DNA from: Treponema primitia ZAS-2
Lineage (GTDB): Bacteria > Spirochaetota > Spirochaetia > Treponematales > Breznakiellaceae
Reading direction: 5' to 3'
Assembly (NCBI RefSeq): GCF_000214375.1
Contig: NC_015578.1
Location: 2,790,001 to 2,854,000, forward strand
DNA: 64,000 nucleotides
Shown: positions 32,011-40,701 of the stretch, one piece after another
How the letters are laid out: every line of letters starts with the position of its first letter
How positions within the stretch are numbered: position 1 is the first letter of the stretch
Position numbers and translations under genes: made by a program
Notes under the pieces: generated by a model
Told to the model about the DNA's origin: nothing
The model's input: only the letters and a program-made list of their open reading frames with translations
Databases searched by the model: none

Positions 32011-32019
32011 GCGGTCGCT

Positions 32020-32196
<177 letters not shown>

Positions 32197-32312
32197 ACAT
32201 GGTCAACATGGGGAAACAGGTATCGCATATCGGGATGGTTTGATGGAGGTCTACGGGATCACATGCCGGAATGTTTAGCACGGGTACGCCTTTGCGTTGA
32301 CCTTTCATAGAC

Positions 32313-39715: not shown

Positions 39716-40040
39716 TATAACAGTAATTCTCAGTTTATGATGACTGTACTGGGGTACCGACCGGGGAGGGAGGGCAATGCCCCCCGACCCTAACCTGTAG
39801 AACCTGCTTACGGAGCCCCTGCGGGTCTCCTCCAGCAGAGAATTCCAGAGACGGGTCGGGGGGCATTGCCCTCCCTCCCCGGCCATTATTTCCGTATATA
39901 CTAAAAGCATTGTTATACGTAACTGTAGGAATGCCTTAGGCTAAGGCTAAACATAATAGTACGCAATACCCTGTATCCCCTGTGTTGACCCGCCCCTCCC
40001 GGAGAATGAGCCACCCTTGGTTAAACCGAGAATTGCTATA
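39716..40040. mobile_element. MITE-like element with terminal inverted repeats upstream of efp
   Basis: Left end TATAACAGTAATTCTCAGTTTA (first 20 at 39716-39735) and right end TTAAACCGAGAATTGCTATA (40021-40040) are imperfect inverted repeats. Inside are the long-stem element (39761-39882) and, near the right end, an inverted copy of the left flank of the 32020 element (39990-40027). No transposase is encoded. It is non-autonomous, about 325 bases. Confidence 0.65.
39761..39882. repeat. Long-stem element with conserved core (second copy)
   Basis: 30-base perfect inverted repeats (39761-39790 with 39853-39882, left arm starting CCGGGGAGGGAGGGCAATGC) enclose a 62-base core. The core matches the 32099-32165 core at TAAC.TGT.GA, the central GGGTCT region and GAATTCCA.AGAC, while the arms differ. 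The stem is thus conserved in pairing rather than in sequence. Confidence 0.8.
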
Positions 40041-40137: not shown

Positions 40138-40701
40138 ATGATACGAGGCGGAGATATAGTCAAAGGGAGCTGTCTGCTCCAGAAGGGCCAGCCCTACCTG
40201 GTGGTAGATCGGGAATTTCATAACCCCGGCAAAGGAACCGCTATTGCGCGGGTTAAAATGAAGAGTATCAAGGATGGCGCCGTATTGACCATGACCATCC
40301 CTACCCAGCAGGAGGTTGAGGATGCCACGGTGGATGTCCATACCTGCCAGTTCCAGTATGCGGATTCCGATAATTATCACTTCATGGATAACGAGTCCTT
40401 CGACCAATATGAGGTACCCATTAGCGATATGGTGGAGAAGAAGTGCTACCTGAAGGATGGGGATGTCTACGATCTGAGCATCTGGGAAACTAAGGTGATT
40501 GATATCAAAATCCCCTTAAAAATGGTCTTCACGGTGGCGGAAAGCGAGAACTATATCAAAGGCGACACGGTTTCCGGAGCTACCAAGCCCATCGTTACCG
40601 AAACGGGACTGACCGTCCGGGTTCCCCTATTTATCAAACAGGATGAACGGATCCTGGTGAACACCGAAACCAATGAATACGTGGAGCGGGTGAATAGCTA
40701 A
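40138..40701 (+). CDS. efp: Elongation factor P
   Basis: 187 residues, standard length. The N-terminal KOW-like domain carries the loop HNPGKGTAIARV with the conserved Lys that is modified in many bacteria, followed by two OB domains (GLTVRVPLFIKQDERILVNTETNEYVERV). EF-P relieves ribosome stalling at proline runs, relevant here as the beta-helix lipoprotein has a TPVPEP linker. A MITE-like element ends 97 bases upstream. Confidence 0.96.
   Translation: MIRGGDIVKGSCLLQKGQPYLVVDREFHNPGKGTAIARVKMKSIKDGAVLTMTIPTQQEVEDATVDVHTCQFQYADSDNYHFMDNESFDQYEVPISDMVEKKCYLKDGDVYDLSIWETKVIDIKIPLKMVFTVAESENYIKGDTVSGATKPIVTETGLTVRVPLFIKQDERILVNTETNEYVERVNS

Follow-up and report, generated by a model that had tools for sequence, protein, structure and literature searches.

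A hairpin repeat family that has not been catalogued before is dispersed in the genome of Treponema primitia ZAS-2 and is kept as a folded single strand. It comprises about 43 copies in this genome and has relatives across many termite-gut spirochaetes. We deduce that a folded single strand is under constraint because the arms of the copies show genuine compensatory variation. Two copies lie in the window, the 64,000-nt stretch analysed here (genome positions 2,790,001-2,854,000). The initial annotation had proposed for them a structured RNA or a DNA hairpin; the hairpin stands as a constrained single strand, and RNA and single-stranded DNA (ssDNA) are not separated.

Copies in the window and in the genome

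Both window copies described initially were confirmed, one with arms of 30 bp that contain no mismatch and the other with perfect 18-bp arms (Table 1). Compared with dinucleotide shuffles, the folds of the copies gave z = -9.9 (39761-39882) and z = -6.5 (32081-32183). The 39716 copy consists of an A-type hairpin, after which comes the end of a B-type unit; the terminal inverted repeats that had been said to frame this copy are present on both sides. Its core contains internal loops and the inner helices P2, P3 and P4. The poly-G stretch within one arm of copy 32099 reflects either homopolymer growth or a sequencing or assembly error.

Table 1. Positions of the features of the two copies within the window
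Feature	Position	Strand	Remark
Left terminal inverted repeat ACAGTAATTCTCAGTTTA of whole repeat unit	39720..39737	+	Genome 2829720-2829737
Outer arm P1, left side, 30 bp	39761..39790	.	0 mismatches versus 39853-39882; from fold
Conserved core, 39716 copy	39791..39852	-	5'-GTCT N TGGAATTC ... TCTACA N GTTA-3'
Outer arm P1, right side	39853..39882	.	Pairs with 39761-39790
Partner ('B-type') hairpin unit, left-end remnant	39990..40039	-	Own hairpin absent
Right terminal inverted repeat	40022..40039		Within B-type remnant 39990..40039
B-type backbone, left flank CGCTGTTTAAACAAGGCGGCTCATTCACC	32016..32044	+	
40-nt poly-G run in outer left arm of second copy	32045..32084	+	
Outer arm P1, left side, 18 bp perfect	32081..32098	.	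From fold
Conserved core, second copy	32099..32165	-	A-T at the variable P2 pair
Outer arm P1, right side	32166..32183	.	Pairs with 32081-32098
B-type backbone, right flank	32184..32235	+	

The core pattern GAATTCCANAGAC gave 43 matches in the 4,059,867-bp genome versus 0 for a reversed-pattern control, so the concern that there might be no other copies is removed. Judged from the genome-wide pattern search and the fetched stretches, on which all counts in this genome are based, 42 of the 43 matches are family copies. These show the left and right blocks, the former being TAACNTGTNGA (a CAAC variant in L033), around an inner region, and their arms are nearly always paired; the remaining exact match (L030) is without left block and arms. 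Covariance model R1, for which plain hairpins score up to ~50 bits (reverse-strand matches) and anything below ~60 bits is uncertain, revealed at least one further strong copy, located at 409,403, as well as several fragments. Complementarity of the arms, claimed at first for the two window copies, holds for nearly all of the 42 and is disrupted in four (L001, L016, L026 and L033), where one arm has a homopolymer, other sequence or a deletion. The left arm of L001 contains a poly-C run, from homopolymer growth in the arm or from sequencing or assembly error. Decayed partial copies adjoin intact ones at L002 (about 1600-1660), L008 and L031, some of them having apparently lost inner parts between the arms. 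A search of the window against Rfam at gathering score gave 0 matches; by E-value, four loci gave generic microRNA-hairpin matches and a few other sub-threshold ones, none of which was accepted.

Nearly every copy (41 of 42) is intergenic, outside long ORFs. Flanking gene orientation was ++ in 14 cases, -- in 13, -+ in 9 and +- in 6, and the neighbouring genes were diverse, with no common family or recurrent transposase seen among them. In view of this random orientation and diversity, cis-regulation of a gene set was rejected. Most copies are single; eight close pairs, 200-460 bp apart, are convergent on the first-written strand. The spacers between some paired hairpins (L020, L022, L027) contain repeated flank-like stretches.

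Several unrelated backbones made of inverted repeats carry the copies, at least three in this genome and others elsewhere. Copies with the A/B backbone of this genome have terminal inverted repeats in common, as MITEs do, and the other backbones differ. The terminal end pattern was found at 8 places in the genome; the ends resemble TATA...TATA, and neither a clean empty site nor a target-site duplication was established. Insertion into pre-existing hairpins, considered as a source of the differing arms, was rejected since copies of the same class share flanks outside the arms. The element is absent from the orthologous site next to efp in three relatives, and also from those next to each of the two genes that border L002 (four and three loci), although gene order at those two loci differs in the relatives, so these are not clean empty sites. 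In the relative G120 (G120:C14), efp (window 40138-40698) adjoins an ABC-transporter gene; in the present genome a long distance separates the two, and each lies next to a copy, L002 in the case of the transporter gene. Copies and breakpoints of rearrangement may thus coincide.

A region of 1.0 Mb spanning dnaA, from 3.17 Mb across position 0 to 0.11 Mb, contains not one of the 42 copies (chance ~6e-6). With dnaA near 1.4 kb and the terminus placed at ~1.6-2.0 Mb from noisy sampled skew, the folding strand coincides with the lagging-strand template for 18 of the 24 unpaired copies (p = 0.023). This replichore bias is the main hint, a weak one, of ssDNA over RNA.

Pairing, core and folding strand

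We aligned 46 copies, 37 from this genome and 9 from two other spirochaete assemblies. Paired cells made up 93.5% versus 66.8% after shuffling, and the covariation score was 0.668 versus 0.183 after shuffling and no more than 0.196 after sliding, so that the compensatory variation suspected from two copies is borne out. The outer arms are ~24-31 bp long; their 24 outer pairs were 91.7% paired, with two-sided changes at 23 of the 24. The short helices P2 and P3 likewise covary and were 100% paired. For 91 matches from other genomes the score was 0.680 versus 0.186, in an alignment made by the model itself and hence fitted to it.

Exceptions to pairing in the arms are strongly asymmetric. On the strand as first written, within 20 bp of the core, there were A.C exceptions in 36 distinct contexts versus G.T in 2 (p = 5e-9), and a separate alignment method that scores both alike gave 42 versus 7 (p = 4e-7). 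Such an A.C excess corresponds to G.T or G.U wobbles on the complement, indicating that the complement is the strand that folds (the minus strand in the window). The near-absence of G.T had also been considered as a sign of upkeep at the DNA level, an idea abandoned when the A.C counts were added. A matching G-to-A excess was not seen in the flanks of the same copies, which argues against plain mutation bias as the source of the asymmetry. In other genomes the A.C:G.T counts ran in the same direction in G007 (17:0), G051 (17:3) and the genomes with a single fetched copy (18:6), and leaned that way in G080 (6:2). The asymmetry fails in G016 (9:10) and G020 (6:5), and G048 leans the opposite way (7:17, p = 0.06). 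Two apical loops of the G048 copies (L043-L047, L049, L078-L092) fold as GNRA on that opposite strand.

Predicted energies agree with the wobble pattern in this genome: the complement folds better in 39 of 42 copies, by a mean of -6.85 kcal/mol, and its consensus energy is -74.1 versus -68.9 for the other strand. The constrained folding strand favoured by the evidence is thus the complement of that written in the initial annotation, whose strand has to be reversed.

Read on the folding strand, the core has the order 5'-GTCT, P2, GAATTC, P3, GNA, P4 with a bulged A, loop, P4', GNA, P3', YTCNA, P2', GTTA. The variable P2 pair is C-G, A-T or T-A in this genome and also G-C in others, and the position adjoining P3 is C.A, T.G or T-A, never C-G. 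A core-structure pattern fits 41 own copies and 37 others; because the letters of the core blocks and GNA loops, and some of those in P4, are set by the pattern itself, this is a count of fitting copies and not an independent rate for the GNA/GNA loops and the bulged A. Among these 41 own copies, every pair of P3 is intact, and in P4 G-C and C-G replace one another. Apical loop types were mixed as a discriminator between RNA and DNA, and we draw no conclusion from them. A kink-turn reading was discarded, as the letters do not match. Integron attC sites have the paired ends RYYYAAC ... GTTRRRY; here a left TAAC is present but the right end is AGAC, and an attC assignment was likewise discarded.

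Distribution in relatives and search for a mobilising enzyme

The covariance-model search of relatives suggested at the outset was productive, with matches in 28 further genomes of the spirochaete family. In all, 29 of the family's 120 genomes and 18 of its 57 genera had model matches (E <= 0.001), the matches at L070-L076 (42-58 bits) being less certain, as they lie within the score range of plain hairpins. Cores read from the 28 other genomes, one each, have mostly the same core blocks or close variants. A phylum-wide model search, which scored no more than nine candidates in each genome, gave none outside the family, and viral contigs gave no match.

A link to Y1 or IS605-type transposases, which had been suspected, was not found: Y1_Tnp (PF01797) was matched in 18 of 29 element-bearing genomes versus 57 of 91 others (Fisher p = 1). 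The 11 element-bearing genomes with no Y1_Tnp match include G016 and G020, which have 28 and 24 model matches; these two, like many genomes in the comparison, are incomplete MAGs. RVT_1 was matched in 12 of 29 element-bearing genomes versus 32 of 91 others (p = 0.66). In this complete genome, with its 42 copies, RVT_1 (PF00078) had no match, and a retro-mobilised RNA dependent on RVT_1 was rejected. Neither these two association tests nor the flanking genes yielded a mobilising enzyme.

Possible origins of the repeat and its place among known elements

The explanation we prefer, held tentatively and at somewhat less than an even chance, is that of a non-autonomous dispersed repeat kept as folded ssDNA and moved in trans by a putative enzyme. 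The hairpin into which the complement of the first-described strand folds would be the functional unit. This fold would be read as ssDNA, mostly on the lagging-strand template during replication; a putative trans-acting enzyme would copy or move the repeat, and spreading would continue only for copies whose arms pair and whose core is intact. In this proposal, pairing is all that counts in the arms, which are therefore free to drift, and recognition of the core keeps it fixed. It is conceivable, if rather doubtful, that the family represents a new class of mobile repeat, defined by its single-strand fold and not by its ends, with exchangeable backbones, a core that is kept and a putative trans enzyme that is neither Y1 nor RVT_1.

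A structured RNA is a close rival of the ssDNA reading and a real possibility, though well short of an even one. Here the complementary strand would give a structured non-coding RNA that the repeats carry to many sites and that binds a protein or acts in trans, the copies being kept since the RNA works. Exceptions of the G.U type, the GNA/GNA internal loop, the bulged A and the covariation of the helices are all common traits of RNA, and the core is conserved across many genera; however, G.U tolerance and GNA loops suit DNA as well as RNA, orientation to the flanking genes is random, selection on each of dozens of copies would be unusual, and the Rfam searches, of the window at gathering score and of four loci by E-value, gave no family. 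Complementarity could also arise by mutation bias with no function. Quasipalindrome correction, in which hairpin-templated strand switching copies mutations between arms, is known in E. coli and would account for arms that are near-perfect yet free in sequence. It leaves unexplained why the core is constant from genus to genus, why the exceptions are asymmetric between strands at 36:2 and why P3 is never broken in this genome, and we consider it improbable.

Two kinds of known mobile repeat have still less to recommend them. If the copies were ordinary MITEs of a DDE transposase (e.g., IS630-like), the hairpin would be a by-product of terminal inverted repeats, which do occur, like TATAGCAATTCTCNGTTTA, in one backbone, with other inverted-repeat ends in other genomes. 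Yet backbones that are unrelated have the core in common, it stays conserved even where the ends vary, and pairing is better in the arms adjoining the core than at the ends, making this origin very unlikely. We give hardly more than a slight chance to a REP/REPIN-type element moved by a Y1 (RAYT/IS200-IS605) transposase. Hairpins, inverted pairs, intergenic sites and compensatory changes are as in REPINs (PMC3116915), but PF01797 and thus a RAYT showed no association with the element, 11 element-bearing genomes, two of them copy-rich, lack a Y1 match, and Y1 does not recur among the flanking genes in this genome.

The repeat nevertheless resembles REPIN- or MITE-type repeats in how it works, a likeness in behaviour and not a demonstrated membership in a named group. 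For REPINs, or REP doublets, of Pseudomonas and other bacteria, compensatory changes and a predicted ssDNA or RNA hairpin have been reported; they are likewise dispersed, intergenic and non-autonomous, and occur as inverted pairs, an arrangement seen here in the eight close pairs only (PMC3116915). REPs, however, are 20-40 bp long (PMC3733652) and tied to RAYTs, whereas the present unit is ~100-130 nt, has a large core with internal loops and showed no Y1 association. The MITE-like palindromic repeats of bacteria (ERIC, Correia/NEMIS, RUP and YPAL) are similar in being ~100-200 bp, intergenic and endowed with long stable stem-loops and terminal inverted repeats (PMC2229807), the last found here in some backbones; they differ from a family with one core across unrelated backbones and genera, covarying arms and a strand-specific tolerance of wobbles. 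Stem-loops of Borrelia plasmid repeats are also intergenic spirochaete repeats with compensatory base-pair changes (PMC2674063), but belong to another organism group; the likeness concerns these described features. The Termite-flg and Termite-leu RNA motifs (Rfam RF01729 and RF01730) were described from the termite hindgut only (PMC2864571); neither was among the Rfam matches, in the window or at the four loci.

These results add a strongly supported, uncatalogued family of structured elements to a major group of symbionts, and illustrate that the strand asymmetry of wobbles can reveal the folding strand of a palindrome. Should mobility depend on the fold, the mobiliser would lie outside the two enzyme types tested. 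The copies are also candidate sites of rearrangement in these genomes.
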